Positions 25,378 to 30,046 of a stretch of 34,843 nucleotides of DNA are shown here, in pieces (position 1 is the first letter of the stretch; each line of letters begins with the position of its first letter). This DNA comes from Propionicimonas sp. (GTDB lineage Bacteria > Actinomycetota > Actinomycetes > Propionibacteriales > Propionibacteriaceae), in the NCBI GenBank assembly GCA_027492575.1, contig JAPUEM010000149.1, positions 1 to 34,843 on the forward strand. Direction: 5' to 3'. Under the pieces are notes generated by a model that did no database searches, was not told where the DNA came from, and saw only the letters and a list, made by a program, of their open reading frames with translations. Made by a program: the position numbers and the translations under genes.

Positions 25378-26049
25378 TCAGGTGGTGGGCGGGACGATGG
25401 TCACGATCCGGGTGCAGCGTTCGGCGAAGGCCGGGTCGTGGGTGACCAGCAGCAGCGCGATGTCCGACTGCTCGACCAGGGCGAGCAGGGCGGTGGAGAC
25501 CCCCTGGGCGGTCACCGGGTCGAGGGCGCTGGTCGGCTCGTCGGCCACGATGACGGACGGTCCGGCGGCGATGGCCCGCGCGATCGCCGCGCGCTGCGCC
25601 TGGCCGCCGGAGACCTCGGTGGGCCGGCGATCCAGCAGTTCGCGTTCCAGGAAGGCCAGCTCGGCCGCCCGGTGCAGCGTTCGTTCGGTGGCGTGCTCGC
25701 CGGTCAGCCGGCGCACGGCGGTCTCGATCGAGCGCCGCAGCGTCCACCGCGGGACGAAGGCCGCCGCCGGATCCTGCGGGACGCCCTGCACCAGATGCCG
25801 CCGCTTCCGGGTGGGACGCACGCGATGCGAGCACCAGTGCTCGCCGTCCACGACGATGTGCCCCTGTTCCGGCGGACGCAGCCCCAGCACCACCTCGGCC
25901 AGGGTCGACTTGCCGGCCCCCGAGCGTCCGATCACCGCCACCGACTCGCCGCGCTCGATGTGGAAGGTGGTGGGGGCGAGGACGCGCCGGGCCTGGGCGC
26001 CGCGGCCGTGCGCGGCAGTCAGCTCGGAGAGTTCGATCACGGGGCTCAT
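25378..26049 (-). CDS. ABC transporter ATP-binding protein (DppF-like, half size)
   Basis: A 223-residue ABC ATPase. Visible motifs: Walker A VIGRSGAGKSTLAEVV, signature EVSGGQAQRAAIARAIA, Walker B SVIVADEPTSALD and H-loop LLVTHDPAF. The segment GVPQDPAAAFVPRWTL contains the Q-loop glutamine and the DP typical of peptide-transporter ATPases. It lacks the C-terminal oligopeptide-transporter extension that full-length DppD/DppF carry, making it about 100 residues short. Start ATG 26049 overlaps the stop of the other ATPase by four bases. The 95-bp gap to the binding protein contains short TGATGGTC-type repeats. Confidence 0.9.
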   Translation of the reverse strand: MSPVIELSELTAAHGRGAQARRVLAPTTFHIERGESVAVIGRSGAGKSTLAEVVLGLRPPEQGHIVVDGEHWCSHRVRPTRKRRHLVQGVPQDPAAAFVPRWTLRRSIETAVRRLTGEHATERTLHRAAELAFLERELLDRRPTEVSGGQAQRAAIARAIAAGPSVIVADEPTSALDPVTAQGVSTALLALVEQSDIALLLVTHDPAFAERCTRIVTIVPPTT

Positions 26050-26717
26050 GCCGGCACCTGCTCGCTCGCCTCGACCGGGATCTCCAGGATCTGGCCCTGC
26101 CGCACCCGCAGGTGCCGGGTGGCGAGCCGCTCGGCCACCGCGCCGTCGTGGGTGGCCACGACCAGCACCTGTTCGGGGTCGACGACACCGAGCAGCATCT
26201 CTAGGGTCTGATCCCGGGTTTCGTGGTCGAGGGCGCTGGTCGGCTCGTCGGCCAGGATCAGCGGCGCCTCGGTGAGCGTGGCCAACGCGACCGCGGCCCG
26301 CTGCTGCTGCCCGCCCGACATCTCGGTCGGACGCCGCCGGTGCAGGGCGTCGTCGGTCAGCCCCACCGCGTGGAGCACCTCGGTGACCCGGGCGGGGGTC
26401 GCGCCGGTCACCCGGCGCAGCTGGGCGGCCAGCCGGATCAGCGGGTGCAGGGCGTCCAGGCCGCGCTGCGGGACGAAGCCGGTGCGGTCGAAGCCGGCGA
26501 CCCGTTCGCCGGTGAACCGCAGCCCCACCTCCCACCGGCCGGCCAGGGTGCGCAGCAGCATCGACTTGCCGCTGCCCGAGGGGCCGGTGACGACCACGCG
26601 ATCGCCTGGGTACAGGTCGAGTTCTTCGACGGTCAGCAGCGTGGTGCCGTCCGTGGTGGTGACCTGGGCGTCGCGGAGGGAGACGAGCGGCCGCTGGGGC
26701 TGGCTTGGAAGATCCAT
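26046..26717 (-). CDS. ABC transporter ATP-binding protein (DppD-like, half size)
   Basis: A 223-residue ABC ATPase, first gene of this operon. Walker A is VTGPSGSGKSMLLRTLAG, signature EMSGGQQQRAAVALATL, Walker B PLILADEPTSALDHE and H-loop VLVVATHDGAVAE. The short FVPQRGLDALHP supplies the Q-loop. Like its neighbour it lacks the usual C-terminal extension; both are exactly 223 residues long. There is no Shine-Dalgarno before ATG 26717; the upstream DNA is AT-rich, with CATAAT 10 bp before the start, so a leaderless or nearly leaderless mRNA is likely. Confidence 0.9.
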   Translation of the reverse strand: MDLPSQPQRPLVSLRDAQVTTTDGTTLLTVEELDLYPGDRVVVTGPSGSGKSMLLRTLAGRWEVGLRFTGERVAGFDRTGFVPQRGLDALHPLIRLAAQLRRVTGATPARVTEVLHAVGLTDDALHRRRPTEMSGGQQQRAAVALATLTEAPLILADEPTSALDHETRDQTLEMLLGVVDPEQVLVVATHDGAVAERLATRHLRVRQGQILEIPVEASEQVPA

Positions 26718-26746
26718 AACGAGAACGATTATGAATACAACTATCG
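26715..26746 (-). promoter_or_regulatory. AT-rich promoter and possible Fur/Zur-family box
   Basis: An isolated AT-rich stretch in GC-rich DNA. On the minus strand it reads GATAGTTGTATTC, then ATAATCGTTCTCGTTAT up to the start codon. It contains a plausible -10 (CATAAT) and an imperfect ATAA..TTAT dyad resembling metal-regulator boxes. The dyad is too degenerate to name the regulator; a metal response is only a suggestion. Confidence 0.35.
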
Positions 26747-26801
26747 CCAGAGCGCAACCCGAACCTCGCTATGGAGGTCCTGATCAATGCGCCACCGACC
26801 C

Positions 26802-26958
26802 CCAGGAACGCTCCCTGAGCCCAAGAATGATTCCTGAGTCCCGAGGACGCTTCTTGAGCTCCAAGAGCGATCCCTGAGTCCCAAGAGCGATCCCTGAGCT
26901 TGTCGAAGGGTCGATGCCCGCAGCCCACACCACGACCCTTCGACAGGCTCAGGGATCG
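26802..26958 (+). repeat. 20-bp tandem array ending in a facing pair of R2 repeats
   Basis: Five units of about 20 bp (consensus AAGAGCGATCCCTGAGTCCC, spacing 19, 20, 20, 20 at the shared TGAG) run from about 26802 to 26900. The last unit merges into R2 (GATCCCTGAGCTTGTCGAAG, 26888-26913). An inverted R2 at 26933-26958 faces it, giving an approximately 25-bp stem. The block just before (26780-26800, CTGATCAATGCGCC) resembles the GGAACGCTGATCAACGCACG part of the 119-bp duplication, so this is another member of one composite repeat family. Confidence 0.8.
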
Positions 26959-27018
26959 TCAAGCGCTTCCCTTGGGACGTGCGGTGAGATGGCAGTCGCG
27001 AAATGTGATATGGGTCCG

Positions 27019-27024
27019 TACACT
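27019..27024 (+). promoter_or_regulatory. -10 box of the cysE leader
   Basis: TACACT fits the TAnnnT consensus. Seven bases separate it from the GTG at 27032, so transcription would start at the start codon itself, giving a leaderless message for the Cys-rich leader peptide. Confidence 0.6.
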
Positions 27025-27031
27025 GGTTCCC

Positions 27032-27103
27032 GTGAGTACGAGATTCGACGCGAGCCTCCCGCTGGGGATGGGCTGTCGAATGCTGTGTTGTCGCTGTTGC
27101 TGA
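27032..27103 (+). CDS. Leaderless poly-cysteine leader peptide (cysteine attenuator)
   Basis: A 23-codon frame starting GTG AGT ACG and ending in a Cys-rich tail (GCRMLCCRCC): five cysteines, at positions 15, 19, 20, 22 and 23, directly before TGA. It has no Shine-Dalgarno but a -10 box 7 bp upstream, so it should be translated from the very 5' end of the mRNA. It lies 60 bp before serine O-acetyltransferase, the committed step to cysteine. Leaderless poly-Cys short frames that attenuate sulfur genes according to Cys-tRNA supply are known from mycobacteria; this has the same design. Downstream, GCGGCG..CGCCGC (27120-27141) can form a hairpin, and GTTGTC (in the last codons) can pair with GACAAC at 27106, an alternative fold. 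Confidence 0.8.
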   Translation: MSTRFDASLPLGMGCRMLCCRCC

Positions 27104-27163
27104 CCTGACAACCGGCCCCGCGGCGTGGATTCTTCCGCCGCCCCAACTCGTAAGGACTCACCC

Positions 27164-27994
27164 ATGACCACTACTCATCCATCGTTCGCAGCCCAGAAGG
27201 CGAGCAGCTCTGTGTCCCACGTCCAGATCTGGAATCGCATCCGCGAGGAGGTGGCCGCCGATGCCGTCGTCGAGCCCGCCCTCGGCGAATTCCTGCGCAC
27301 CGCGATCCTCGATCACCACCATCTTGAGGATGCCCTCGGCTACCTGCTGGCCGACAAGCTGGCGGCACCGTCCGTCCCGGCCGAGCAACTGCGCGAACTG
27401 ATCGGCCACGCCTTCACCGACGACCGCTCGATCGGCATCGCCGTCCGGGAGGATCTGCGGGCGATCGTCAGCCGCGACCCGGCGGCCCGCGGCTACGCCA
27501 CCCCGCTGCTCTACTTCAAGGGCTTCCACGCCCTGCAGGCCTACCGCGTCTCCCACTACTACTGGACGCAGGGACGCCCGCAACTCGCGCTCTACCTGCA
27601 GAGCCGCATCTCCGAGGTCTTCGCCGTCGACATCCACCCCGGCGCCCGGATCGGCAAGGGCATCATGTTCGACCACGCCACCTCGGTGGTGATCGGCGAG
27701 ACCGCCGTCATCGAGGACGACTTCTCGATGCTGCACGAGGTCACCCTCGGCGGCACCGGCAAGGTCGGCGGCGACCGGCACCCCAAGATCGGACGCGGCG
27801 TCATGATCGGTGCGGGCGCCAAGGTGCTCGGCAACATCCGCGTCGGCGAGGGCGCCAAGATCGGCGCCGGCAGCGTCGTCCTGGACGACGTCCCGCCCTA
27901 CACCACCGTGGCCGGCGTTCCGGCCCGGTCCGTCACGTATCCCGTCCACGGCCTTCCGGCGCTGGACTTCGGGGATCTGGAAGGAAGCCTCTAA
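27164..27994 (+). CDS. cysE: Serine O-acetyltransferase
   Basis: A 276-residue enzyme that makes O-acetylserine from serine and acetyl-CoA, the first step of cysteine synthesis. The N-terminal helical domain (about 1-150; WNRIREEVAADAVVEPALGE) is present as in the E. coli-length enzyme rather than the shorter EpsC-like form. The C-terminal left-handed beta-helix has hexapeptide repeats: DIHPGARIGKGIMFDHATSV, then TAVIEDDFSMLHEVTLGGTG and GAGAKVLGNIRVGEGAKIGA. The active-site DH pair (FDHATS) and HEVTLGG are intact. ATG 27164 follows AAGGA; the frame is open 13 codons further but that part belongs to the leader region. Expression is probably controlled by the Cys-rich leader. Its stop shares a base with the next start (TAATG). 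Confidence 0.96.
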   Translation: MTTTHPSFAAQKASSSVSHVQIWNRIREEVAADAVVEPALGEFLRTAILDHHHLEDALGYLLADKLAAPSVPAEQLRELIGHAFTDDRSIGIAVREDLRAIVSRDPAARGYATPLLYFKGFHALQAYRVSHYYWTQGRPQLALYLQSRISEVFAVDIHPGARIGKGIMFDHATSVVIGETAVIEDDFSMLHEVTLGGTGKVGGDRHPKIGRGVMIGAGAKVLGNIRVGEGAKIGAGSVVLDDVPPYTTVAGVPARSVTYPVHGLPALDFGDLEGSL

Positions 27995-28524
27995 TGAACA
28001 CCTCTCTGGTCGGCGACGTGAAGGTGCCGCGCCGCAGCCCGTTCCACTTCCCGAACCCGGTCAACGAGTGGGCCGCCCGCTCGGTGGCCTTCGGGGTCTT
28101 CTCGCTGGCCGTGCTCACGCTGGTGACCGGCTGGTACTGGATCACCCTGGTGCTCTTCGTCGGCTTCGCGCTGCGGCTCGGCTGGGGGCCGCGGTACAGC
28201 CCGCTGGGACGCCTGGCCGTCCATGTCATCGCCCCCCGGCTGGGCAAGCCGCGGCTGGTGCCCGGCCCGCCCAAGCGCTTCGCCCAGGGCATCGGCACCG
28301 TGGTGACCGGGCTCGCAGCGGTGCTGTGGCTCACCACCGGCTCCGTGGTCGGCCCGGCCATCCTGCTGGGCATCCTGATCGTCGCCGCCGGGCTGGAGGC
28401 CTTCCTCGGCTTCTGCCTCGGCTGCTGGATCTTCGGCTACCTGATGGCCTGGGGCGTCATCCCCACCTCGGTCTGCGAATCCTGCGCCGACGTCTCCCGC
28501 CGCTACGCCGAGAACCCCGCCTGA
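27994..28524 (+). CDS. DUF4395-family membrane protein
   Basis: A 176-residue protein with about four hydrophobic segments (for example SVAFGVFSLAVLTLVTGWYW and AILLGILIVAAGLEAFLGFC). It matches the DUF4395 pattern: an N-terminal NPVNEWAARSVA, the middle GPRYSPLGRLA and a Cys-bearing end with CESCADVS. DUF4395 proteins often sit next to rhodanese or thioredoxin-like genes, in keeping with a role in sulfur or thiol metabolism. Here the gene overlaps the cysE stop by one base, so it is translated with cysE under the Cys leader. The CxxC-type pair could be redox active; its function is unknown. Confidence 0.85.
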   Translation: MNTSLVGDVKVPRRSPFHFPNPVNEWAARSVAFGVFSLAVLTLVTGWYWITLVLFVGFALRLGWGPRYSPLGRLAVHVIAPRLGKPRLVPGPPKRFAQGIGTVVTGLAAVLWLTTGSVVGPAILLGILIVAAGLEAFLGFCLGCWIFGYLMAWGVIPTSVCESCADVSRRYAENPA

Positions 28525-28528
28525 CCGG

Positions 28529-30046
28529 TCAGGCCCAGCGGGCCAACTCCCGCACGGTCTCGATGGTGTCGGCTTCGTCCGCCATCTTGTCCTCCCGGTA
28601 GCGGACGACCCGCGCGAACCGCAGCGCCATGCCACCCGGGTAGCGCGGTGAGCGCTGGACGCCGTCGAAGGCGATCTCGACCACCTGCTCGGGGCGGACG
28701 GTGACCACCCAGCCGTCGTCGGTTGTCATGAGCTCCTCGAACCGGGCGGTCTGCCAGGCGAGCATCTCGTCGGTCATCCCCTTGAAGGTCTTGCCGAGCA
28801 TCACGAACCCGCCGGTGGCCGGGTCGCGGGCGCCGAGGTGGATGTTGGAGAGCCGGCCGCGGCGGCGTCCGCTGCCGTGTTCCACGGCGAGCACCACCAG
28901 ATCGAGGGTGAGGACGGGCTTCACCTTGATCCAGCCGGCGCCGCGGCGTCCGGCCTCGTAGGGCAGGTCGAGGGCCTTGATCACGACGCCCTCATGGCCC
29001 TGGGCGAGGATGTGGCGCGAGAAGTCGTCCGCGGACGTGGGGTCGGCGGTGACCAGGCGTTCCACCCGCAGCCCGTCCGGCACCAGGCCGGCCAGCCGGG
29101 CGTGGCGGACGCTGGTCGGCTCGTCGATCAGGTCGTCGCCGTCCACCTCCAGCAGGTCGAAGAAGTAGGCGCTGAGCGCCAGGCCGGCCGGGTCGGCGGC
29201 GGAGGCGCTGCGGGCGGCGGTCTCTTGGAAGGCGCGCGGACGACCGTCCGCGTCGAGGGCGAGGGCTTCGCCGTCCAGGACGCAGCTGTGGCAGGGGAGC
29301 GCGGCGACGGCTGCCGCGATCTCGGGCAGCCGGACGGTGATGTCGTCCAGGCTGCGGGAATAGAGGCTCACCTGGTCGCCGCGTTTGTGGGCCTGGATGC
29401 GGATGCCGTCCAGCTTCGCCTCGACCGCCAGCGGCTCGAGGCCGAGCTTCGCGAACGCCTCGGCCACGGTCGGTGCGCTGGAGGCCAGCATGGGCAGCAC
29501 CGGGCGTCCGACTTCGAGGTGCAGACTCGTGAGCGCTGCCGGGCCCCCGGTCGCGGCGGCGCCGGCTGCTGCCGGGACCGACCCGCTGAGCATGGCCGCC
29601 CGCCGCACCAGGCCGATCGGCACCTCGAAGGCCTTCGCGATCGCCAGCAGCAGCACCCCTTCCAGGGCTCCCTGCCGGGTCTCGCCCACGATCAGCCCGC
29701 CCAGGAACTGCTGCTCGTCGGCCGTCGCGCGTCCCATCAACTCGGCCAGCCCGGACTGTCTGGCCAGTTGCGAACCCGGGCCTGACAAGCCACTCAGGTG
29801 CTCCAGGGCCCCATCGACCTCGGCGATCGCGAGGGTGGGCGAGTCGGCCGCCGGGAAGCCGGTGAGCGACCGCCAGCCGATCCCCGTCCGCCGCTGCCGC
29901 AGCCGGCCGGCGAGCAGATGCGCGAGCAACTCGACCTCACCGGGTTCCGCCGCGGCGAGCAGCTCGGCCAGCACCGCGACCTTGCCGTTGCGCGCACTGG
30001 TCGCCGCGACCTGCTGCGACGCCCGCACCACCGCCGAGAAGAGCAT
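28529..30046 (-). CDS. ligB: ATP-dependent DNA ligase (LigB type)
   Basis: A 505-residue ATP-dependent DNA ligase. The adenylated lysine is Lys211 in VEAKLDGIRIQ (motif I, KxDGxR). Other nucleotidyltransferase motifs are visible: SCVLDGEALALD (motif III), FFDLLEVDGDDLID, EGVVIKALDLPYEAGRRGAGW (motif IV and flank) and WIKVKPVLTLDLVVLAVEHG (motif V). An N-terminal DNA-binding domain (about 1-190) precedes the catalytic core, and an OB-fold follows. Length and layout match the actinobacterial LigB enzymes, which join DNA nicks and are dispensable beside NAD-dependent LigA. The ATG at 30046 was chosen over an upstream ATG because it begins MLFSAVVRASQQVAATSARN, the usual LigB start. Confidence 0.93.
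   Translation of the reverse strand: MLFSAVVRASQQVAATSARNGKVAVLAELLAAAEPGEVELLAHLLAGRLRQRRTGIGWRSLTGFPAADSPTLAIAEVDGALEHLSGLSGPGSQLARQSGLAELMGRATADEQQFLGGLIVGETRQGALEGVLLLAIAKAFEVPIGLVRRAAMLSGSVPAAAGAAATGGPAALTSLHLEVGRPVLPMLASSAPTVAEAFAKLGLEPLAVEAKLDGIRIQAHKRGDQVSLYSRSLDDITVRLPEIAAAVAALPCHSCVLDGEALALDADGRPRAFQETAARSASAADPAGLALSAYFFDLLEVDGDDLIDEPTSVRHARLAGLVPDGLRVERLVTADPTSADDFSRHILAQGHEGVVIKALDLPYEAGRRGAGWIKVKPVLTLDLVVLAVEHGSGRRRGRLSNIHLGARDPATGGFVMLGKTFKGMTDEMLAWQTARFEELMTTDDGWVVTVRPEQVVEIAFDGVQRSPRYPGGMALRFARVVRYREDKMADEADTIETVRELARWA

Follow-up and report, generated by a model that had tools for sequence, protein, structure and literature searches.

Canestrari et al. (2020) reportedly described the poly-Cys leaderless short ORFs of mycobacteria, and at Ms5788A a stalled ribosome is said to free the ribosome-binding site. 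Contiguous Cys codons in leaderless frames of M. smegmatis regulate the downstream genes by attenuation, this control being termed translation attenuation, and mycobacterial poly-Cys leaders precede cysA2, Rv0485 and nirA (PMC9031893, PMC13236596, PMC9094748, PMC4633059). The ilvB1 attenuator of M. tuberculosis (PMC13236596) is likewise an amino-acid-rich upstream ORF (uORF) placed before a biosynthetic operon, but it uses an intrinsic terminator, which was not found at the cysE leader considered here. In our literature searches for Cys-rich leaders only mycobacterial work was retrieved, nothing was obtained for Ms5788A by name, and the DUF4395 papers found did not appear to be about cysteine.

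The cysE-DUF4395 leader in the window

The window, i.e., the whole stretch of 34,843 nucleotides that was analyzed, is part of a Propionibacteriaceae genome and contains a short ORF in which the Cys codons are clustered late and which heads a cysteine-metabolism operon, these being traits of the poly-Cys leaderless attenuators (Table 1). We put at roughly four in five the probability that this uORF of cysE-DUF4395 is a leaderless poly-Cys attenuator sensing cysteine supply. The first-pass annotation had described a 23-codon GTG frame with five late Cys codons, TACACT 7 nt ahead of it and cysE 60 bp beyond it, and both its coordinates and its counts were right, with the Cys residues at codons 15, 19, 20, 22 and 23 and the 60 bp extending from the uORF stop to the cysE ATG. 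By consensus scan no full sigma-70 −35/−10 pair was found at the window promoter, which is also devoid of the extended TG that precedes the −10 element in 19 of the 27 uORF loci described below.

The DNA separating the ABC-transporter gene from the cysE promoter contains, at 26801–26959, a tandem array of five 20-nt units together with an inverted repeat of 26 nt that is 96% complementary. The repeat core, CCCTTCGACAGGCTCAGGG, is a dispersed REP-like element, present in the genome in 115 copies (57 forward and 58 reverse, with 0 in the backwards control).

Table 1. Features of the cysE-DUF4395 region, in positions of the window
Feature	Positions	Strand	Basis or remark
ABC-transporter gene	26046–26717	−	divergent neighbour, on the other side of the uORF from cysE
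Predicted −10 element TACACT	27019–27024	+	7 nt 5' of GTG
Putative leaderless uORF, 23 sense codons from GTG, MSTRFDASLPLGMGCRMLCCRCC plus stop	27032–27103	+	sequence; conserved in loci L031, L032 and L003
Putative Cys sensor tract, codons 15–23	27074–27100	+	five Cys codons: TGT ×4, TGC ×1
Stem GTTGTC (27087–27092)/GACAAC (27107–27112), Cys tract to spacer	27087–27112	+	predicted fold
C-rich, G-poor spacer, possible Rho-loading stretch	27104–27151	+	composition
Hairpin GCGGCG (27120–27125)/CGCCGC (27136–27141), no T run 3' of it	27120–27141	+	predicted fold
cysE Shine-Dalgarno (SD) AAGGA	27152–27156	+	flanks predicted to pair with the transcript's first 11 nt
cysE, serine O-acetyltransferase, 276 aa	27164–27994	+	Pfam SATase_N and Hexapep; ATG at 27164
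DUF4395 gene, 176 aa	27994–28524	+	Pfam PF14340; ATG overlaps the cysE stop by one base

Conservation of the leader and its place in operons

Other cysE loci were scored for TAnnnT lying 4–9 nt before an ATG or GTG that opens a frame of 10–45 aa with at least 3 Cys in the last 10, a criterion that was fixed after the first relatives had been inspected and with which all controls were scored as well. Out of the 100 family matches 70 were read for cysE loci, and the 142 loci were merged where the cysE sequence was shared, giving 87 non-redundant loci; eight gammaproteobacterial loci (L103–L110, the L numbers being our handles for loci) were excluded from the 87 and have the uORF in none of the eight. 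A leaderless Cys-tailed frame was found in the sense direction upstream of cysE (250 kb) in 27 of the 87 loci, compared with 0 matches on the antisense strand of the same 250 kb, one in the downstream control (280 kb, both strands) and one in total in 20 shuffles of the upstream set, i.e., about 0.05 expected per set, the shuffles being first-order chains and not exact dinucleotide shuffles. When the criterion was run on both strands of the whole 34.8-kb window, the uORF described here was the only match.

Conservation of the Cys codons in relatives, which the first-pass annotation had named as a check on its proposal, was thereby confirmed, and conservation above chance (27/87) is a further trait shared with the poly-Cys leaderless attenuators. 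Judged by these sequences, the Cys-tailed frame upstream of cysE is more than chance. Short leaderless frames are common in mycobacteria (PMC4633059), which would favour a frame that arose by chance or serves simple leaderless coupling, its Cys codons being without signal, but this reading is highly improbable in view of the 27 sense matches vs 0 antisense (about 0.05 expected) and of a Cys tail that is kept where the remainder has diverged. Two properties that lie outside the demands of the criterion agree with a non-chance frame: the gap between TAnnnT and the start is 6 or 7 nt in all 27 loci, with 4–9 permitted, and the Cys codons of the leaders are TGT in 79 of 120 cases vs 1 of 26 for those of cysE and window genes (Fisher p = 2e-9). 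The last Cys lies 0–5 codons before the stop in every one of the 27.

In a maximum-likelihood phylogeny of the 87 cysE proteins the uORF trait takes 7 changes vs 23.4 with shuffled labels, and in the window's own clade the uORF is present in 4 of 4 loci; since the uORF loci are related, 27 is not to be read as the number of independent origins. The 60 loci with no uORF, whose number counts against a cysteine-sensing attenuator, include many from Tessaracoccus, Arachnia and Propioniciclava, and also L038, L043, L047 and L050, which are near the window's genus.

Within the leaders themselves the number and spacing of the Cys residues differ (LCCRCC, LCCCCC, RCCCCG, MCMCCCR, AGCCCC), the last Cys is replaced by Ile in L031, the closest relative, a point against our preferred explanation, and the N-terminal halves are unlike between groups, with the Cys tail kept. 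Cys clusters are able to bind metals and the uORF is conserved, as would be expected if it encoded a functional Cys-rich micropeptide acting in trans, e.g., by metal or thiol binding, but such a peptide is very hard to reconcile with the varying Cys number and spacing, the dissimilar N-terminal halves, a TGT bias suggesting that codons and not the peptide are kept, and the fact that the uORF keeps to the front of cysteine operons. L039 and L041 share a conserved frame of 66 to 67 codons (MKDI...), placed after the uORF and before cysE.

The uORF heads cysE-DUF4395 in the window and in L031, and in most other uORF loci it stands directly ahead of cysE. It lies about 1 kb ahead of cysE in seven loci (L033–L037, L040 and L042), and where the genes were listed (L033, L034, L036, L037 and L040) the order is uORF, DUF4395-like gene, thioredoxin-like frame and then cysE; Pfam confirmed DUF4395 in L033, L034 and L040 and thioredoxin in L034 and L037, and the first gene in L042 opens with the same DPRGPRF start. 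In L055 (Propionicicella superfundia) a PALP (cysK-like) gene follows the uORF and precedes cysE. Micropruina glycogenica (L049), like P. superfundia a cultivable relative, has the same leader. As read from these loci, the uORF holds the operon-front place whether cysE, DUF4395 or cysK leads. By tblastn, DUF4395 was detected in 5 of the 27 uORF loci vs 0 of the 60 others, this search having overlooked divergent copies that were later shown by Pfam.

In L037 a thioredoxin-like domain and CysE are found in one open frame with no stop (from −432 to +789, counted from the cysE match). This is possibly a Trx-CysE fusion, though an SD-like stretch and an ATG precede the CysE part.

The DNA itself shows the frame, the geometry of its promoter, its conservation, the bias in its codons and its place in operons. 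Taken together, the last four give strong support to the leaderless poly-Cys leader that had been proposed for cysE-DUF4395.

Predicted response and output step

Transcription of cysE-DUF4395 would start at the GTG at 27032 or within about a base of it, and with the start predicted at the GTG the mRNA would open with the uORF; a 5' end at this predicted start agrees with the −10 element lying 6 or 7 nt ahead in all 27 loci. The five Cys codons, mostly TGT and just before the stop, would gauge charged Cys-tRNA. When cysteine is short, ribosomes would stall in the tract and cysE expression would rise, and when it is ample they would pass through the tract and expression would be low; by analogy, the output step may be the release of the ribosome-binding site of cysE. 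M. smegmatis is the model here for leaderless translation, for stalling and for the way in which expression responds.

A match to PAPS_reduct (the CysH/CysD family) was not obtained in this genome, which is rated 100% complete, vs matches in 14 of 14 control genomes, and this route of assimilatory sulfate reduction therefore seems to be absent. Cysteine synthesis may be controlled mainly at the O-acetylserine made by cysE. Neither pattern scans of the whole genome nor an inspection of six PALP loci revealed a second leaderless Cys uORF, the patterns used (TGYTGYTGYNNNTGA, 12 matches, all 12 examined; TGYTGYTGYTGY, 40 matches, with 30 loci and the match inside the window examined; and codons for DLCRV, 2 matches, both examined) covering not every possible Cys tract.

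With regard to RNA structure, the first-pass annotation had proposed a switch between two hairpins. Both of the pairings that it named, GCGGCG/CGCCGC and GTTGTC/GACAAC, are present in the sequence, but they appear side by side in one predicted fold and are therefore not mutually exclusive, which speaks against the switch. The window leader folds with a z of −1.06, with 25 of 200 shuffles folding as well, and the GTTGTC/GACAAC duplex is no better than shuffles (p = 0.18). Across the 27 loci, duplexes between Cys tract and spacer have a mean z of 0.09 when compared with shuffled spacers, and those between uORF and SD are near 0 at all positions.

In the predicted fold of the window the first 11 nt pair with both SD flanks (GUGAGU/ACUCAC and ACGAG/CUCGU), and the same pairing is seen in L031 with G-U pairs. 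A ribosome mask placed at the tract did not open the window SD (0.76 to 0.66), and among 15 leaders folded with a mask at the tract or the stop the SD was clearly opened by the tract mask in L060 alone. In L006 and L008 the uORF stretch CTGCGGTG is, by eye, complementary to CACCGCAG beside the SD, and both loci score in the duplex test of uORF and SD (z about −2.4). As a family-wide rule, hairpin switching was rejected and SD masking gained no support, with no consistent signal obtained from folds, masks or duplex tests; for a simple masking structure the modelling gives a negative result, the masking tests being of a kind that can overlook multi-step folding. A trp-type attenuator with an intrinsic terminator was likewise rejected, as no terminator-like site (GC-rich hairpin plus U run) was found in 26700–28700, before cysE or elsewhere.

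The spacer between the uORF and cysE is C-rich and G-poor, and this makes a Rho-dependent output a live rival to the output step of our preferred explanation, though not to its sensor. With the same Cys sensor, Rho would load on the spacer and end the transcript before cysE, and the loading site would be shielded by a ribosome paused in the Cys tract near the stop, in a way resembling tnaC. In the spacers of all 27 loci there is more C than G, by a mean of 0.215 of length, vs −0.02 in the 60 uORF-less loci (p = 7.6e-12; measured over the interval from −90 to −20 relative to the match start, the true 5' ends there being not known) and −0.018 upstream of the same promoters (p = 7.5e-9). A position of the Cys tract always beside the stop would suit such an output, as would the lack of an intrinsic terminator in the region scanned and of a masking structure in the duplex tests. 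On the other hand, Ms5788A-type spacers also lean to C (0.10 over 11 loci with uncertain gene starts) and the namesake of that family is reported to act by translation attenuation; moreover, the C excess may merely keep the RNA open, and the window spacer contains a GC-rich hairpin, which is unfavourable to Rho. We consider Rho a possible but rather unlikely output; if true, its gating would give the poly-Cys leader class another kind of output.

DUF4395 and comparison with known leaders

The tie between DUF4395 and cysteine supply put forward by the first-pass annotation gained independent support from other loci. Sampling of 197 genomes of the class showed DUF4395 in 151, and at 11 of 30 DUF4395 loci a short frame with a DLCR...C tail, resembling the Ms5788A leader, lies no more than about 260 bp upstream (one in the antisense control), though these 30 are the best-scoring of the 151 genomes and 11/30 is therefore not a class-wide rate. 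All eight DLCR...C peptides that were scanned against NCBIfam match leader_Ms5788A, five above the cut-off and three below it. With Ms5788A-like leaders at other DUF4395 loci, two unrelated leader sequences head DUF4395 operons, and it is through both of them that the uncharacterised DUF4395 is tied to cysteine supply. A broader reading, in which the Cys-sensing leaderless uORF gates Rho and DUF4395 is a co-controlled membrane part of cysteine supply under two unrelated leader families, is speculative and we hold it to be improbable.

At L173, L181, L182, L193 and seven other loci of the class, DUF4395 comes first after an Ms5788A-type Cys leader. The gene 3' of DUF4395 in the four named loci reads like what we take to be a CysA2-type sulfurtransferase, and the frame that is next in L181 and L182 is presumably SseC/DUF1416-like.

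When the window peptide and nine relatives were scanned with the NCBIfam models leader_Ms5788A, leader_Ms4527A and leader_Rv2334A, no match was obtained up to E 10, and the covariance models of Rfam 15 gave none up to E 5 in 26700–27300. The leader_Ms5788A family (NF042933) is also Cys-rich and heads DUF4395 operons in other actinomycetes, whereas the window peptide is without its RRAVDLCRV core; leader_Rv2334A (NF042939) has a poly-Cys tail too, but in the window cysE and not cysK is first. Rv2334 we take to be cysK1, beside cysE in M. tuberculosis, and the existence of an NCBIfam model for its leader means that control of cysE operons by Cys leaders is not wholly new in kind. Such control is probably not unique to this lineage either, since among 21 cysE loci of a presumed mycobacterial genus there are 3 with a Cys uORF some 1.15 kb ahead of cysE; one of these uORFs, scanned against leader_Rv2334A, reached 21.5 bits, below the cut-off of 35.

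If a leaderless poly-Cys attenuator is indeed what precedes cysE-DUF4395, ribosome-sensed control by cysteine would be carried to the cysE operons of Propionibacteriaceae and their relatives, and the 27 diverged natural variants constitute material for testing the output step. The leader differs from the mycobacterial poly-Cys ORFs in lineage, in target (cysE first, with DUF4395), in peptide and in that masking of the ribosome-binding site is at chance level. It resembles them in being, as predicted, leaderless, in having a Cys run near its end and in its first place in a cysteine-metabolism operon, and we judge it to be a new member of the mycobacterial poly-Cys leader kind, to which it adds a lineage, a gene order and a link with DUF4395.
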